DNA of 31,593 bases. Origin: a virus. Within the stretch, counting starts at the first letter, position 1; each line of letters starts with the position of its first letter. A program made the position numbers and the translations under genes. Positions 3,011 to 26,128 of the stretch are shown one piece after another. The stretch spans positions 1 to 31,593 of IMG/VR virus record IMGVR_UViG_3300033153_006933, one strand, 5' to 3'. The notes below the pieces were generated by a model. The model was given only the letters and a program-made list of their open reading frames with translations, was not told the origin of the DNA and did not search any database.

Positions 3011-3488
3011 TTATTTTATAAGTAACGATTAACAAATCGTTAGCTATCATATTCTTTGTAGCAAAGGTAGTTCTTCCTATCATTATCCCCCCAGAAGCTG
3101 TAGAGGTATCAAACACTCCGACCCCTCTGACTGCTTGAGTTCCAGAAGCTGTCCAAGTGTGAACTAACTGAGCTGTATCGTTAGTATCGTCTGTGGTTAC
3201 TCTAGTACAAGTAGCTGCTGCTCTTCCACAATCATTAGCTGTTATCTCTGTAACTAGAGCTGTATCAGCTGCCGTAGCCGCGGTTGAAGAAGCATCTAAC
3301 GCTAACCACTTGAAGCCACCAGAGGTTGCTTCATTAATTAACCCTGCCACCTCGGCTTTCCCAGTTGTGGTAGCAGTATTGTGTATTTCTACTCTTGATA
3401 TTTCCTTACCGTTCCTTTTGTGGGTAATAACAAATAACCCGTTCATAACTATTGAACCATCAGGAACGATTGCAGGTTTTAATCTCAT
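3000..3488 (-). CDS. Phage structural protein, fibre/decoration type
   Basis: The 162-aa product has the pattern of a common phage virion protein. An N-terminal beta segment (residues about 15-35) is followed by NTATTTGKAEVAGLI, a Thr/Ala-rich core with RAAATCTRVTTDDTNDTAQ, and a C-terminal VGVFDTS...TFATKNMIANDLLIVTYKI strand pair. I recognise this layout from small tail-fibre or decoration-like proteins in uncultured phages, but no assayed function is known to me. Its ATG overlaps the TGA of the upstream gene (ATGA), indicating translational coupling inside the tail operon. Uncertain whether head decoration or tail fibre. Confidence 0.65.
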   Translation of the reverse strand: MRLKPAIVPDGSIVMNGLFVITHKRNGKEISRVEIHNTATTTGKAEVAGLINEATSGGFKWLALDASSTAATAADTALVTEITANDCGRAAATCTRVTTDDTNDTAQLVHTWTASGTQAVRGVGVFDTSTASGGIMIGRTTFATKNMIANDLLIVTYKINVD

Positions 3489-18227: not shown

Positions 18228-18432
18228 TTTTCCTTGTTTTAGTTTCTTTACTTGGTTTTAATAAGTTTACAACCCTTGGAACAACTTCGGAGTTTAGTCT
18301 TTCTAATTCGACTAACATTTCCAACCACGTATTCAGGGCATATCTCTTATAGTCATCAAAGTTTTCGTCCTGAAATATTCTGGAAATATGACACTCCCCC
18401 TTTTCAAAGGTTACTTTTAATTCCTTCTCCAT
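18196..18432 (-). CDS. Small hypothetical protein with basic tail
   Basis: The 78-aa product has a mixed acidic/aromatic N-terminal half (SRIFQDENFDDYKRYALNTW) and a helix (LEMLVELERLNSEVVPRVV). It ends in a strongly basic, low-complexity tail made of repeated KTRK units. It overlaps both neighbours (28 bp and 32 bp). I do not recognise it. Genuine because of its tight fit in the operon and low overlap with other frames. Confidence 0.5.
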   Translation of the reverse strand: MEKELKVTFEKGECHISRIFQDENFDDYKRYALNTWLEMLVELERLNSEVVPRVVNLLKPSKETKTRKNEATKTRKSK

Positions 18433-19348
18433 TTATTTTGTTAAGCATTTCCTCTACCCTATGTTTATAGGTGAATTCAGAAATGCAATGTTTATAACCT
18501 GCGTCTTGTATTTTTTTCCTTTCATCCTCGTGCTCTAAATAATAGTCTATTGTGTCAAATAGTTCTTGGTTAGTCTTGTATCCAGCAAAATGCCTTCCTT
18601 CTAACCAACCTTCTTCCTTTAACCCGTATAGGTCTGGGTGGATTAGAAACCCGCCAGAACCGAGGGTCAAATAGAACCTTGAAGACCAATAGAACTCATC
18701 ACTTGGATGTCTTGGTGCTACTACTATTTTTGCCGACCTACATAAATCGTATAAATCTCTATTGAACACGTTATTAAACTTCTTATACTTCTTCCCGTAT
18801 TTTGATTGGATTGCTCTATCAAAACCTTCTCTCCCTTCGTAGATATTACCAGTAAAGGCAATATCACATTTGTATTCTTCTCTGACTTTCCCAAGACTCG
18901 TATCTTCATTCCCGATACCTTGTCTTAACGGAAACATATTCTTGAAACTATGTCTTTTAACAAAGGTTTCATCTGTCAAGAACACATAATCACAATAAGA
19001 TGCTACGTATTCTATATATTCCTCCCTATCTGGAAATACCTTATCAAGGTACCAGCATACCTTTGGGCAAGTTATATAGGTTAATAACTTAACCAATAAG
19101 TCTAACCCAATGTATTGACTTACTCCACCCTTATGAAATAGAAACATATCTGCGTCATTGTTCTCTAATATCTTAATATCAACTCTGTTCTCTACATTTT
19201 CATCTCTATCATAGTCTTTAAATTCAGACTCATCTATCGCTAAAACTGTATGTCCCAGCTCTTCTAAGGCGTATTTAATATGTCTTTCAGTTGAATCCGA
19301 CAACGGATTATCAAAATTACCCAAATATAATATCTTCAATTTTTTCAT
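18404..19348 (-). CDS. CgeB-like glycosyltransferase (Glyco_trans_1_2)
   Basis: I choose the start at ATG 19348 (MKKLKILYLGNFDNPLSDST). The open frame extends upstream to 19432, but that part runs through an intercistronic stem-loop with no usable start. The 314-aa protein has an N-terminal Rossmann strand, ADMFLFHKGG, CPKVCWYLDK, CDIAFTGNIYEGR, RSAKIVVAPRHP and SSRFYLTLGSGGFLIHPDL. The C-terminal YKTNQELFDTIDYYLEHEDE...AGYKHCISEFTYKHRVEEML matches the CgeB/Glyco_trans_1_2 family. It is the first gene after the capsid gene, opening the sugar cluster. Confidence 0.82.
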   Translation of the reverse strand: MKKLKILYLGNFDNPLSDSTERHIKYALEELGHTVLAIDESEFKDYDRDENVENRVDIKILENNDADMFLFHKGGVSQYIGLDLLVKLLTYITCPKVCWYLDKVFPDREEYIEYVASYCDYVFLTDETFVKRHSFKNMFPLRQGIGNEDTSLGKVREEYKCDIAFTGNIYEGREGFDRAIQSKYGKKYKKFNNVFNRDLYDLCRSAKIVVAPRHPSDEFYWSSRFYLTLGSGGFLIHPDLYGLKEEGWLEGRHFAGYKTNQELFDTIDYYLEHEDERKKIQDAGYKHCISEFTYKHRVEEMLNKINGEGIKSNL

Positions 19349-19359
19349 ATAATTCTTAG

Positions 19360-19425
19360 TGTTCGTTCCCAGACGCCATGGGGCACAGTTCGTCTGGAAT
19401 ATACCCCATGAACGAGCACTGACAA
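19360..19425 (-). other. Nested inverted repeat between capsid and sugar genes
   Basis: On the transcribed strand, AGTGCTCGTTC pairs with GAACGAACACT (10 of 11). Inside it CCAGACG pairs with CGTCTGG (7 of 7). Alternatively ATGGGG pairs with CCCCAT across the inner arms, so two folds compete. It lies directly after the capsid stop codon. There is no U-run, so it is not a classic intrinsic terminator. It may slow 3' decay or reduce transcription into the sugar cluster. Confidence 0.55.
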
Positions 19426-19435
19426 GGAACAATGC

Positions 19436-20907
19436 TTATGTTGAAGTTGCTAGAATTCTAACACACCTATTAGCATGTAGAATTTTCTTTCCCCAAATCA
19501 AGTCTGCGATAATCTTTGTTCTTAGACTTTCACTTGGTTTAGACGTAAAGTCTACTCCAGTTCTTGCATGAGCCATAAATGTAGGGTGAACGATACAGTT
19601 AGTAATTCCTAAATCTCCTGATTCTTTTGGAGTGTTAGGTGTTAACGTAACTGGAACCCCGTACAGAATATCATGGGTACCTTGAGGAAGTGATGCTCTA
19701 CCAAACTGAGATGCATCGTAATACTTCTGTATCGCCATTAAATCGTTCCAGTATACCTTTGGATTGAAATAGAATCTGCATTCGTTCTTCGGTATACTGT
19801 TAGATGCAAGGATACTCATAGCATACTCAATATTGGTTGCCACCAAATCTGTGGTAGTCAAACCTGCTCGTGCTGGAACTGTATTTAGTAAACTTGTGCT
19901 AGCAAGTAAATCGATTTCTAATTCTCTAGCTAATCTATAACCCATCGCCTTCTGGTATTCTGCTATGATATTAGGTCTCTTCATTATCTCACGTTGTTCA
20001 AACTTCGTGATATAATAAGAGGTTCCATACCATTGGTCTACGACTAAGTCTGATTTAGTTTCAGAAATAGCTGTAGCTGTAACATCACCAGAGGTTACAG
20101 GAATAGTAGAAGCAGAGAAAACGTCAGAAATATGAGGTATGTGGACGGTGTCTGCATTTCTTACTTCCCCAGAATAATCTAGGAAGAAGTTAGCTGCTGA
20201 CAACTTCTCAGCCATAAACCTTGTAACTCTAGGAGTCCAAAGCTCCAATTGTGTTAGCTTATAGTTTCTATTCCTATAAGTTCAGACTGTCGCATCCTCT
20301 TTCGAGGTCTTCTTGTTCAGTCGTTCGGGCTGCACAGACTTGCCTCTTTTATTCAATTCTTTAATCTCATAATAGTATTTTTCCCTTTTTTCTATCACCT
20401 CGTTTTTCAGTTGCTTATAACTATTATTGATTAACTCATAAGAGTTAGAATTAAATGTCTTTAGAAATCTTTTAATTACCCCAGCGTGTTCTTTCTTTAT
20501 TTTCAGATAAGGATAAACCTTTTCAATAAATGGAGATACTTTTTTAGTGCCTTTAATACACCATACATAAGCATCATTCCACCTATTGTCATTGAATTTC
20601 CTTTCTGATAAATAACCGCCGAAACTATTATATAACCAATCTATTAACTCTTTATTGGTTAAACATACTCTTATTCTAGCTTCGTGTTTTCTATTATCTC
20701 TTCTTATTTCTAAAGAACCTTCTCCGTCTAATAACCCAGCTACATAGGCTGCGGTTAATTTAGACATTATAGACATAATCCTGCTTGCCTCTTGTTAGCG
20801 ATTTCAGCTTCCAAGTCAATTAAAGAAGATTTTACCGACCCAATTTTGAACTTAGGCCGAAACACATCATATTTGTCGTCGTCAAAACCTGTACCTACTG
20901 TCATCAT
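19436..20907 (-). CDS. Major capsid protein, split by a group I intron (exons 20907-20854 and 20257-19436)
   Basis: This is the head shell subunit. Exon 1 encodes 18 residues (MMTVGTGFDDDKYDVFRP) and exon 2 encodes 273 residues starting LTQLELWTPRVTRFM, so the joined protein is 291 aa. HK97-type capsid features are seen: an N-terminal helix, LDYSGEVRNADTVHIPHI, then a strand-rich core, a spine-helix-like EYQKAMGYRLARELEIDLLAS, and PQGTHDILYGVPVTLTPNTP near the C-terminus. The gene follows portal and scaffold in the standard order and starts 6 bp after the scaffold stop (ATG 20907 or 20904). Without splicing, exon 2 has only TTG 20248 as start and the protein loses its N-terminus. Capsid identity is firm; the splice positions are inferred from RNA structure and phase. 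Confidence 0.85.
20258..20853 (-). ncRNA. Group I self-splicing intron in the capsid gene
   Basis: The 596-nt intron is proposed from fold elements read on the minus strand. P1: exon end CGGCCU pairs with internal guide GGGUCG, ending in the required U.G at the splice site. P3: UCUUCUU (20829-20823) with AAGAAGA (20314-20308). P4: GACUUG (20817-20812) with CAAGUC (20342-20337). P6 is short. P7: GACUG (20322-20318) with CAGUC (20289-20285). P8: CCUC-GAAA-GAGG (20307-20296). P9: CUUAUAG with CUAUAAG (20280-20258), ending in the terminal G. Exons join between complete codons (CCT|CTA). The helix order matches group I introns. The endonuclease gene sits in the P5 loop and runs into the core. Subgroup undetermined. 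Confidence 0.85.
20282..20776 (-). CDS. LAGLIDADG homing endonuclease (intron-encoded)
   Basis: The 164-aa protein has one LAGLIDADG motif near the N-terminus (AYVAGLLDGEGSLEI, about residues 10-24) with the catalytic acidic residue, followed by a beta-strand surface (ARIRVCLTNKELIDWLY) and a lysine-rich C-terminus. A single motif implies a homodimer, as in I-CreI-type enzymes. It would cut the intronless capsid gene near the exon junction. It is not in frame with exon 1, so it is not an intein. Its last 20 or so codons overlap ribozyme elements P4, P6, P7, P3, P8 and P7', ending in TGA directly after P7. Start ATG 20776 follows AAGCAGG; ATG 20767 is an alternative. Confidence 0.88.
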   Translation of the reverse strand: MSIMSKLTAAYVAGLLDGEGSLEIRRDNRKHEARIRVCLTNKELIDWLYNSFGGYLSERKFNDNRWNDAYVWCIKGTKKVSPFIEKVYPYLKIKKEHAGVIKRFLKTFNSNSYELINNSYKQLKNEVIEKREKYYYEIKELNKRGKSVQPERLNKKTSKEDATV

Positions 20908-23802: not shown

Positions 23803-25134
23803 TTAAATAAACGATTGTGGATTGCGACTTTTCGACCTCTTTTTTAATTCTTCTTTTAATTTATTTGGTTGCTGTGGAACCCCTGGGTTTAACCCCCAAA
23901 CTGCTAGTGCTAGACTGTCCACACAGTCATCGTGATAGCCTTGAGGAGCCCCATATTGAATATTTCTTAATCTTATCCCTGTTTTCTCATTCAAATACTT
24001 GTATTCAAAGGCTTTTAACTCATCTATTAGAACACCCTCGTTTGGTATCTTAATATACTTTTCCTCTGTATAAACTATTAAATTACCTATTAACTCTTCT
24101 TTTGCCTTGCCACTAAAGGTGAAATCCTCTACAAATATCCCCGATACCCTTAAATCTTCATAGATTGGCTTTCCTACCCCAGTAGCGTCTATTATTACTC
24201 TGGCATTGTTATATCTCTGGGCTTTGGCTATTATCTGCTTCTTTTGAAGGGGGTAATCCCTACCTTTAAACCTGTCTATATGAACTACCTTCTTAGTAGT
24301 GGTGTCTATTACCGTCATTACTGTGTAATCTTGTTCTTCTGCCAAGTCAATCCCTATAACATAGAAGTGTCCTGAAACAACATCTTGGTATAGTTCATCT
24401 TTTGGCACCACTATGTCATCTATGTTTCTAAATACAACCCCCGAATCTGACACAAACTCTGCCATATACTCCTGTCTAAATAGCAATTCTGGGGTATCTT
24501 TTCTAATTATCTCTAGTTCTTCTGGTGTAGTTTCTACTCCATCAGTAGATTTGAATCTAAAGGCTGCGTTCTGGTCTTTTAAGATAGCAAACTTCTTCTG
24601 ATACCAGTTCTTCCCACGAGGGGTACTAATATAATATGTTTTACCCTTTTTGGTAGCAGAAGCGGTAATTGGTCTTAAATACTGGTGATAAACTTTCTCT
24701 GGGATTAAAGCGGCTTCATCTATTACAGCTAAATCTACTCTTTCCCCCAGCATTCCCAAAGGTTCTGTGGTAGATTTACATTGTACCCAGACACTTTCCG
24801 ATAGTTTAATCTGTGGCTGGGGTCTTGAACTAACATATTGTCCAAACCTCTTATCGTATAATATTAAAAACTTAACCACATAATTAAAGACCTTTTCACA
24901 TAAAGTATAAGAAGGTGCTACTATAAATATCTTTACTGACTCTCTTTTACCCTTTTTTAGGTCATTTATCCCCTCTAGGAACTCCTTAACTACCAGATAG
25001 CCCATTAGCATTGATTTACCCCAACCACGTCCAGCACAGACGATTACCTCTCTTTTCTTACAGTTGATTACGTCCTCTTGACCCCCTCCGTGGGGGTGCC
25101 ACTTAATCTTATCTTGTAAAAGGGAATGTTTCAT
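23803..25134 (-). CDS. terL: Terminase large subunit
   Basis: The 443-aa DNA-packaging motor has Walker A GRGWGKS at about 35-41, Walker B LAVIDEA at about 135-141 with catalytic Glu, and a coupling motif STPRG at about 170-174. The RNase H-like nuclease domain follows, with GIDLAEEQDY (Asp about 263), IIDATGVGKP (Asp about 316) and HDDCVDSLAL (acidic residues about 402-406). All catalytic elements are intact and the length is normal. It cuts concatemers and pumps DNA into the portal. The start overlaps the upstream deacetylase stop as ATGA; the small subunit is four genes upstream. Confidence 0.96.
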   Translation of the reverse strand: MKHSLLQDKIKWHPHGGGQEDVINCKKREVIVCAGRGWGKSMLMGYLVVKEFLEGINDLKKGKRESVKIFIVAPSYTLCEKVFNYVVKFLILYDKRFGQYVSSRPQPQIKLSESVWVQCKSTTEPLGMLGERVDLAVIDEAALIPEKVYHQYLRPITASATKKGKTYYISTPRGKNWYQKKFAILKDQNAAFRFKSTDGVETTPEELEIIRKDTPELLFRQEYMAEFVSDSGVVFRNIDDIVVPKDELYQDVVSGHFYVIGIDLAEEQDYTVMTVIDTTTKKVVHIDRFKGRDYPLQKKQIIAKAQRYNNARVIIDATGVGKPIYEDLRVSGIFVEDFTFSGKAKEELIGNLIVYTEEKYIKIPNEGVLIDELKAFEYKYLNEKTGIRLRNIQYGAPQGYHDDCVDSLALAVWGLNPGVPQQPNKLKEELKKRSKSRNPQSFI

Positions 25135-25745
25135 ACTACATTTAATATACTATTATTAAGCATCATTACTACTTCTAGGTCCCACGGGTCTTCACTAAAA
25201 CCCCTCTGAGAGGTCCTACAACCCTCGTAGCCGAGCTTTTTAGCTATTTCCGTATCAAACCTCCTACCCCCTGGCAAACTAAGGTATTTCGGTCTTCTGC
25301 CTATTTTTTTCTCTATAAGGTCAGCTGAAGTCTTTAGCTCGTATATTATGTCCTTTTCACTCAACTCATCTAGCGGAGTATGGCTATGAGTATGACTTTC
25401 TATTGTATTCCCGAACCTAGCCATTTCTTTCAACTGTTTCCAACTACAATATCCTCTGGTTCCTATTTTCTTAGTAGGTACAAAGAAACTTGCCTTTATC
25501 CCGTATCTCTTCATTATTGGAAAGGCTATTTCATAATTATCTATTTTCCCGTCATCAAAAGTAATCGCCACTCCTTTCTTCTTACCAATGTCCTCTATCA
25601 TAATATTCTCCATTACCCTCCTCATATCTTCAAAGAACAAACTCTCCTTTCGGTAGTATAGAAACGGGGCACCCTCGTAACTTCTTCTGTAAAGGTTCTC
25701 GTTCACATCTTCGTCTTTTATTATATGGTGATAAAGCAAAATCAT
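25131..25745 (-). CDS. NodB-type polysaccharide deacetylase
   Basis: I choose ATG 25745 (MILLYHHIIKDEDVNE), which overlaps the upstream TGA; an upstream TTG at 25760 is possible. The 204-aa protein has the NodB motifs: TFDDG at about 62-66, SHTHSH at about 117-122 (zinc His pair) and LPGGRR at about 157-162. Such enzymes remove N-acetyl groups from GlcNAc-type polymers. There is no signal peptide, so it would act in the cytoplasm or on a virion. It is out of place among packaging genes, between the small and large terminase genes. It could modify a host glycan or a phage glycoconjugate. Confidence 0.85.
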   Translation of the reverse strand: MILLYHHIIKDEDVNENLYRRSYEGAPFLYYRKESLFFEDMRRVMENIMIEDIGKKKGVAITFDDGKIDNYEIAFPIMKRYGIKASFFVPTKKIGTRGYCSWKQLKEMARFGNTIESHTHSHTPLDELSEKDIIYELKTSADLIEKKIGRRPKYLSLPGGRRFDTEIAKKLGYEGCRTSQRGFSEDPWDLEVVMMLNNSILNVV

Positions 25746-26128
25746 TTCTTCATTAGCCAACTACTACTTTGTATCTTATCTCCCTCAAATACCATTTGGA
25801 TACCATTCTTCTCACAGACCTCTATTTCGGGGATATTATCAGAAGTCCTATCTCCTCCGTTACAAAATATATCAGGCTTCAATCTCTCCAACGTCTTACA
25901 GACTGTCCTATCTTCATCTACACTTCGGATTACCTCCTTTACTCCTTTTAGGCTTTTAAGGACCTTGGCTCTTTCCCGTAGCGGCATTATGACCCTACCA
26001 TATTTCAAGACCTGCTGAACATCATTGTTTAAGATAATATACACCTCTCCCATTCTGGCGGCATTCTGGATATACTCAATATGTCCAACGTGTAACCAGA
26101 TGAAGTAACCACTTATAGCTATTATCAT
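25742..26128 (-). CDS. Nucleotidyltransferase, diverged HxGH type
   Basis: The 128-aa protein has the fold signature SGYFIWLHVGHIEYIQ at about 6-21, where HVGH replaces HIGH and the usual FD is lost. It also has PLRERAKVLKSL at about 49-60, matching RERxxxL. CNGGDRTSDNIPEIE near 89-103 is like RfaE-C domain proteins, and SSSWLMKK forms the end in place of ISTT. It resembles ADP- or CDP-sugar synthase domains. Diverged from the copy at 16127-16513 but similar in size. It sits directly before the deacetylase with ATGA overlap. Confidence 0.78.
   Translation of the reverse strand: MIIAISGYFIWLHVGHIEYIQNAARMGEVYIILNNDVQQVLKYGRVIMPLRERAKVLKSLKGVKEVIRSVDEDRTVCKTLERLKPDIFCNGGDRTSDNIPEIEVCEKNGIQMVFEGDKIQSSSWLMKK

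Follow-up and report, generated by a model that had tools for sequence, protein, structure and literature searches.

Organization of the major capsid locus

The window, by which we mean the whole 31,593-nucleotide stretch of viral DNA analysed here, carries on its minus strand a major capsid gene in two exons, separated by what is very probably a group I intron with a homing endonuclease gene inside it. The features of this locus are as follows:

20854-20907, minus strand: 18-codon exon 1 of the major capsid gene (MMTVGTGFDDDKYDVFRP), matching the N-termini of the intronless capsids L001 and L002 (...DKYDVFRP)
20246-20853, minus strand: very probable group I intron, 608 nt, with omega-G 20246 at its 3' end, placed by intronless relatives and sibling introns
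20835-20860, minus strand: P1, exon 1 UCGGCCU (20860-20854) with the internal guide sequence GGGUCGG (20841-20835) and a U.G pair at the splice site, covarying with the capsid exon in 16 introns
20823-20829, minus strand: P3 5' strand UCUUCUU, partner at 20314-20308, with 7 of 7 pairs covarying and 100% paired in 16 introns
20791-20815, minus strand: P4 (20815-20812 CUUG with 20794-20791 CAAG) around P5 (20809-20807 AGC with 20799-20797 GCU); P4 covaries, and P4 and P5 are in the MFE fold
20282-20776, minus strand: ORF of 164 aa (MSIMSKLTAAYVAGLLDGEG...) for a LAGLIDADG homing endonuclease, located in the P6 region and overlapping P7, P3 and P8 at its 3' end; similar to I-MsoI, phrog_5046 and PF00961
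20765-20769, minus strand: UAAUG, in which the stop of the exon-1 frame (20769-20767) overlaps the AUG of endonuclease Met4 (20767-20765), shared by six relatives
20318-20322, minus strand: P7 5' strand GACUG, from covariation and the covariance model
20308-20314, minus strand: P3 3' strand AAGAAGA, from covariation
20296-20307, minus strand: P8, CCUC-GAAA-GAGG with a GAAA loop, from the covariance model and the MFE fold
20285-20289, minus strand: P7 3' strand CAGUC, from covariation and the covariance model
20258-20280, minus strand: P9, CUUAUAG-GAAUAGAAA-CUAUAAG, ending at 20258, from the MFE fold
19436-20245, minus strand: capsid exon 2, stop included, 269 codons (ELWTPRV...), matching the major head protein families phrog_267 and phrog_283

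A glycosyltransferase gene (18404-19432, minus strand) lies directly after the capsid gene, and the mycobacteriophage LittleE shows the same arrangement (gp15). In L001 an ORF of similar appearance comes after the capsid gene; the stretches concerned are 3911-4807 in L001 and 2368-2901 in L108. A polysaccharide deacetylase-like gene (25131-25760, minus) adjoins the terminase gene (23803-25134) on its upstream side, on the same strand.

Starting 17 nt past the capsid stop codon there is a 61-nt RNA element (19419-19359, minus strand), formed by an outer stem around a hairpin, the loop of which is paired with the adjacent 3' strand as a pseudoknot. Across ten related phages 99.5% of its cells are paired and 21 of 22 pairs change on both sides, against 13.4 in shuffles and at most 13 when slid, with strands that were chosen by pairing; in a plain alignment (A8) the corresponding figures are 97.1% and 19 of 27 pairs. 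Of the 16 records searched, 10 have the element, always as a single copy immediately behind the capsid gene, and these include L013, which lies outside the model. The element had no match above chance in Rfam. It possibly serves as an RNA-decay barrier or an expression regulator.

Exons and boundaries of the intron

Exon 2 of the window matches the phrog_267 major head protein in a profile search (E=5.9e-12) and also phrog_283, and phrog_267 was matched by all 16 exon-2 proteins of the intron-bearing set; judged by this likeness to major head protein families, the window protein is a phage major capsid protein, presumably of the HK97 fold type. Exon 1 contributes the residues MTVGTGFDDDKYDVFRP, and joining 20854 to 20245 yields the capsid sequence ...DKYDVFRPELWTPR, with the predicted peptide ...YDVFRPELWTPR across the splice junction. 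The resulting junction, FRP/ELWTPR, compares with FRPE[V/I]WTPR in the uninterrupted capsids of the intronless L001 and L002 (...DKYDVFRPEVWTPR and ...DKYDVFRPEIWTPR), both of which are 57% identical to the window over exon 2. Because these intronless relatives match the product of the 20854/20245 joining, the intron is placed at 20853-20246 (608 nt), ending by comparison with relatives in the omega-G at G20246. In all the delineated sibling introns the omega-G likewise stands directly before the homologous capsid codon.

The original prediction had proposed an 18-codon exon 1 (20907-20854), an insert and an exon 2 in matching phase, an arrangement that the N-termini of intronless capsids bear out: aligned relatives without the insert read straight through FRP/E[V/I]WTPR, and none of the intronless relatives examined starts its capsid at the position of TTG 20248. 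Its 3' end at 20258, and with it the insert length of 596 nt, required a correction of 12 nt, given that G20258 is the final base of P9, paired with C20280. A junction at 20258 was rejected, as it adds four residues (LTQL) that are absent from relatives and its equivalent upstream G is out of frame in L008.

Secondary structure of the ribozyme core

All the helices that had been predicted in group I order, namely P1 ending in U.G, P3, P4, P7, P8 and P9, were located in the window. P1 and P3 comprise 7 bp each in the window intron, a U.G wobble marks the 5' splice site in 16 of 16 aligned introns, P4 and P7 are paired 100% in the 16 introns, and the register of P3 and P7 is the same throughout the introns aligned. 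Covariation was scored on 16 gap-free intron cores over the 23 pairs of P1, P3, P4 and P7, where 98.6% of the cells are paired and both sides change in 16 of 23 pairs; shuffles give 9.2 such pairs and slid versions no more than 7. This statistic leans toward structure since the helix strands were placed partly by their pairing. A P3-J3/4-P7 descriptor was found in 34 related loci on the plus strand, against one on the minus strand, and block shuffles gave 0-1. A covariance model (R1) that describes the 3' core and was built from 11 related introns with the window left out gave a single match in the 31.6 kb of the window, at 20334-20263 on the minus strand (68.3 bits, E=3e-18). With the endonuclease ORF trimmed, the MFE fold of the intron contains P1, P4, P5, P6, P7, P8 and P9 (z=-2.7), P3 being missing because it is the pseudoknot partner. 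The subgroup IA helices P7.1 and P7.2 are absent, with just 3 nt between P7 5' and P3 3' in the window, and P10, sought by eye in the window intron, gave a weak and unconvincing pairing.

The Infernal scan of Rfam that had been suggested as a check found no group I match in the window, either at the gathering cut-off, at E<=10 or with RF00028 directly, and RF00028 was silent for most of the related loci scanned too. This model proved insensitive on control introns: its cut-off is 50 bits, but the LittleE capsid intron, proven by RT-PCR, reaches 30.7 and the SPO1 polymerase intron, which is annotated, 25.6. The cut-off is a gathering score, a database threshold and not a defining property of group I introns. 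Because these two introns also score below the cut-off, the miss in the window carries little weight. A 5' core pattern, TRATTGACTTGGANGCTGAAAT, was observed in 52 viral contig stretches (L209-L260), mostly in compact introns whose P6 is short and which lack an endonuclease gene, some contigs having two cores. This pattern marks a widespread group I family, largely missed by RF00028 in the related loci scanned.

Endonuclease and distribution of the intron

By sequence likeness, the enzyme encoded in P6, on which the finding of the original prediction was silent, is a LAGLIDADG endonuclease of the I-MsoI/I-CreI type. The ORF aligns with I-MsoI over residues 7-107 (E=1.4e-10), is similar to I-CreI as well, matches phrog_5046 (E=5.8e-24) and falls just under the cut-off of 23.1 for PF00961 (LAGLIDADG_1; 22.5 bits, E=2e-4). 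The motif reads VAGLLDGEG in the window, and its D17, G18, E19 and G20 are invariant in the endonuclease alignment (A1). I-MsoI and I-CreI share the single LAGLIDADG motif of the window enzyme, but they are encoded in introns of chloroplast rRNA genes. At the same capsid site, L121 harbors an endonuclease-free intron with a short P6 hairpin.

A DNA similarity search of a phage collection with the window gave no match. Searching with the endonuclease led to L004, L005 and L007, an alignment search led to 80 viral loci, and introns were delineated in 17 of the related loci. In 16 of these 17 the insertion falls at the same capsid codon boundary, between Pro (CCT) and the Glu of a Pro-Glu-x-Trp motif (Thr replaces Glu in L004), the exception being the intron of L011, ~20 codons downstream. 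The intron-bearing capsids, with identities to that of the window as low as 16-20%, all match major head protein families. Among 90 loci of a capsid-similarity set, seven have an intron core just upstream of the codon and nearly all the others are uninterrupted. The empty site is seen at the DNA level by comparing the intron of L024 with the intronless L195, which are ~86-90% identical and whose homology breaks at the intron boundaries. The capsid tree requires at least ten intron gains or losses, which, together with the patchy presence at one codon, would fit cleavage of the intronless allele by the endonuclease. From these comparisons, the intron appears to spread among divergent phages via a near-invariant capsid motif.

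Two further features were noted in these loci. Exon 2 is broken again in L040 (~3060-3110) and L055 (3028-3886), 28 and 12 codons downstream respectively, apparently by another group I intron. The capsid intron of L236 (reverse strand, near 2669) belongs to the window's lineage and its endonuclease has GE*Y for GEGY; the genes of this phage seem to read TGA as sense, which suggests genetic code 25 or 4.

One intron lineage, mostly missed by the standard Rfam model, recurs at a single codon boundary in the gene for the most abundant virion protein, in capsid families that are very divergent. Since the lineage is poorly detected, automatic annotation would often miss the true capsid N-terminus, as with the truncation at a TTG start in the window. 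The conserved Pro-Glu-x-Trp motif offers a natural series for homing studies, in which donors and empty sites stand beside an intron that lacks the endonuclease.

Alternative readings of the locus

Were there no intron, the capsid would start at TTG 20248, where a 270-codon ORF opens, and the LAGLIDADG gene would be a free-standing intergenic endonuclease, of a kind common in phages; the silence of Rfam on the window would fit such an arrangement. In intronless relatives, however, the frame goes on upstream to give an N-terminus matching exon 1 of the window, the group I helices covary, and the insertion is clean in the comparison of L024 with L195, all of which makes this reading extremely unlikely. 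We also regard as very unlikely a degenerate group I intron that has lost splicing or is spliced at 20258. The lack of an Rfam match would agree with decay, but the core helices are all intact and score 68 bits with a model made of other introns, both capsid exons keep open reading frames and are conserved, and the splice site at 20258 would lie inside P9. Considering that LAGLIDADG domains are also known from inteins and from certain group II introns, these two classes were weighed as well, and we give them practically no credence. Protein splicing is impossible because the endonuclease and capsid frames differ and a stop codon closes the exon-1 frame, while a group II intron is at odds with the group I P3/P7/P8 architecture of the window and with the Rfam scan, in which no group II family reached threshold and the lone match, to a plastid group II intron, was at chance level (E=1.4). 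We hold with high confidence that a group I intron with boundaries 20853-20246 lies in the major capsid gene.

Exon-1 frame and translation of the endonuclease

In most group I introns the exon frame stops just after the 5' splice site (PMC3073962). In the window it remains open for 28 codons into the intron, through the 5' domain, and then reaches UAAUG at Met4 of the endonuclease; L004, L008, L009, L010, L012 and L013 also have an open exon-1 frame ending in UAAUG or UGAUG at Met4, so that 7 of 11 introns (window included) keep the frame open to this point. The 5' domains vary from 80 to 98 nt, and length differences in P5/P6 compensate modulo 3. The exon-1 frame stops early, at nt 7-19, in L005, L007 and L014, where the endonuclease is still encoded, and at nt 91 in L011, 26 nt ahead of Met4; three of these four have UUAUG, and L014 retains TAATG. 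In shuffles, a single frame is open by chance in 13-26% of cases.

These patterns suggest, tentatively and at slightly less than even confidence, that the endonuclease is made by coupled translation from the unspliced capsid mRNA, with restart at UAAUG/UGAUG; the seven open-frame introns share ancestry, and the conserved core is itself stop-free in that frame, and both are caveats to coupling. The same intron might instead have its endonuclease translated from its own ribosome-binding site at Met1, independently of capsid translation, with UAAUG incidental or ancestral, a reading that we consider evenly poised. In the window, a Shine-Dalgarno-like AGGA that precedes Met1 by a few nt speaks for independent translation, as do the three introns that encode the enzyme behind an early stop, whereas the position of UAAUG/UGAUG exactly at Met4 in seven of seven open-frame introns, the UUAUG of three of the other four and the compensating P5/P6 indels, by which the frame is kept, speak against it. 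An overlap of this kind, UAAUGA, joins T4 mobE to the upstream nrdA and was interpreted as suggestive of translational coupling (PMC2988022).

If coupling is true, endonuclease synthesis and ribozyme folding would be mutually exclusive on one RNA, and RNA structure and reading frame would be co-selected within the same 80-100 nt (P1, P3, P4 and P5). It would also reverse the usual rule of a stop just past the 5' splice site that excludes ribosomes. The coupled expression arrangement is possibly a novelty of the window's lineage.

Proposed mechanism

In the mechanism that we propose, the capsid gene is split, between the codons for Pro and Glu in an N-terminal Pro-Glu-x-Trp motif, by a mobile group I intron whose P6 holds an endonuclease gene. 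P1, formed by exon CCU and guide GGG, would position the 5' splice site in the capsid mRNA, P7 would bind the guanosine, and splicing, for which the window intron is predicted to be active, would join 20854 to 20245 and restore the full capsid frame. Head assembly would need splicing because the intron splits the capsid gene. The endonuclease would cut intronless alleles at the Pro-Glu-x-Trp motif and repair would copy the intron in, the guide sequence changing along with each new exon during transfer between capsid genes; because the motif hardly changes, the intron could pass between very different capsid genes. With coupling, ribosomes would proceed from exon 1 through the 5' domain of the intron, stop at UAAUG and restart at Met4 of the endonuclease.

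Comparison with known systems

In the open-access literature searched we found no description of the window's intron lineage or of its fixed capsid codon. The capsid gene (gp13) of mycobacteriophage LittleE contains a group I-type intron with an I-CreI-like LAGLIDADG gene, the splicing of which was proven by RT-PCR and N-terminal sequencing (PMC3706429). As in the window, an HK97-fold capsid gene is interrupted, the upstream exon ends in U and the intron in G, and the site, judged by eye, precedes the same N-terminal region by ~4 codons (...GTGG/YAVPPLW); unlike the window's intron, that of LittleE is 819 bp long, has its endonuclease on the opposite strand and occupies a different exact site. 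Its membership of the same lineage was rejected, as model R1 gave no match.

The T4 td intron with I-TevI resembles that of the window in that its endonuclease ORF lies in P6 and encroaches on the ribozyme core, and its endonuclease translation and splicing compete; it differs in the type of enzyme, in the use of a late promoter and in a hairpin that covers the ribosome-binding site (PMC2988022, PMC3073962). A group I intron in the capsid gene of the lactococcal phage Tuc2009 is cited in PMC3706429, and group I introns are described in the MCP genes of Delta and Zeta group crAss-like phages (PMC7886860); these belong to other phages and are likened to the window's intron by gene and intron class only. 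Capsid-gene group I introns are already known in phages, from LittleE, Tuc2009 and crAss-like phages, and the window adds another.
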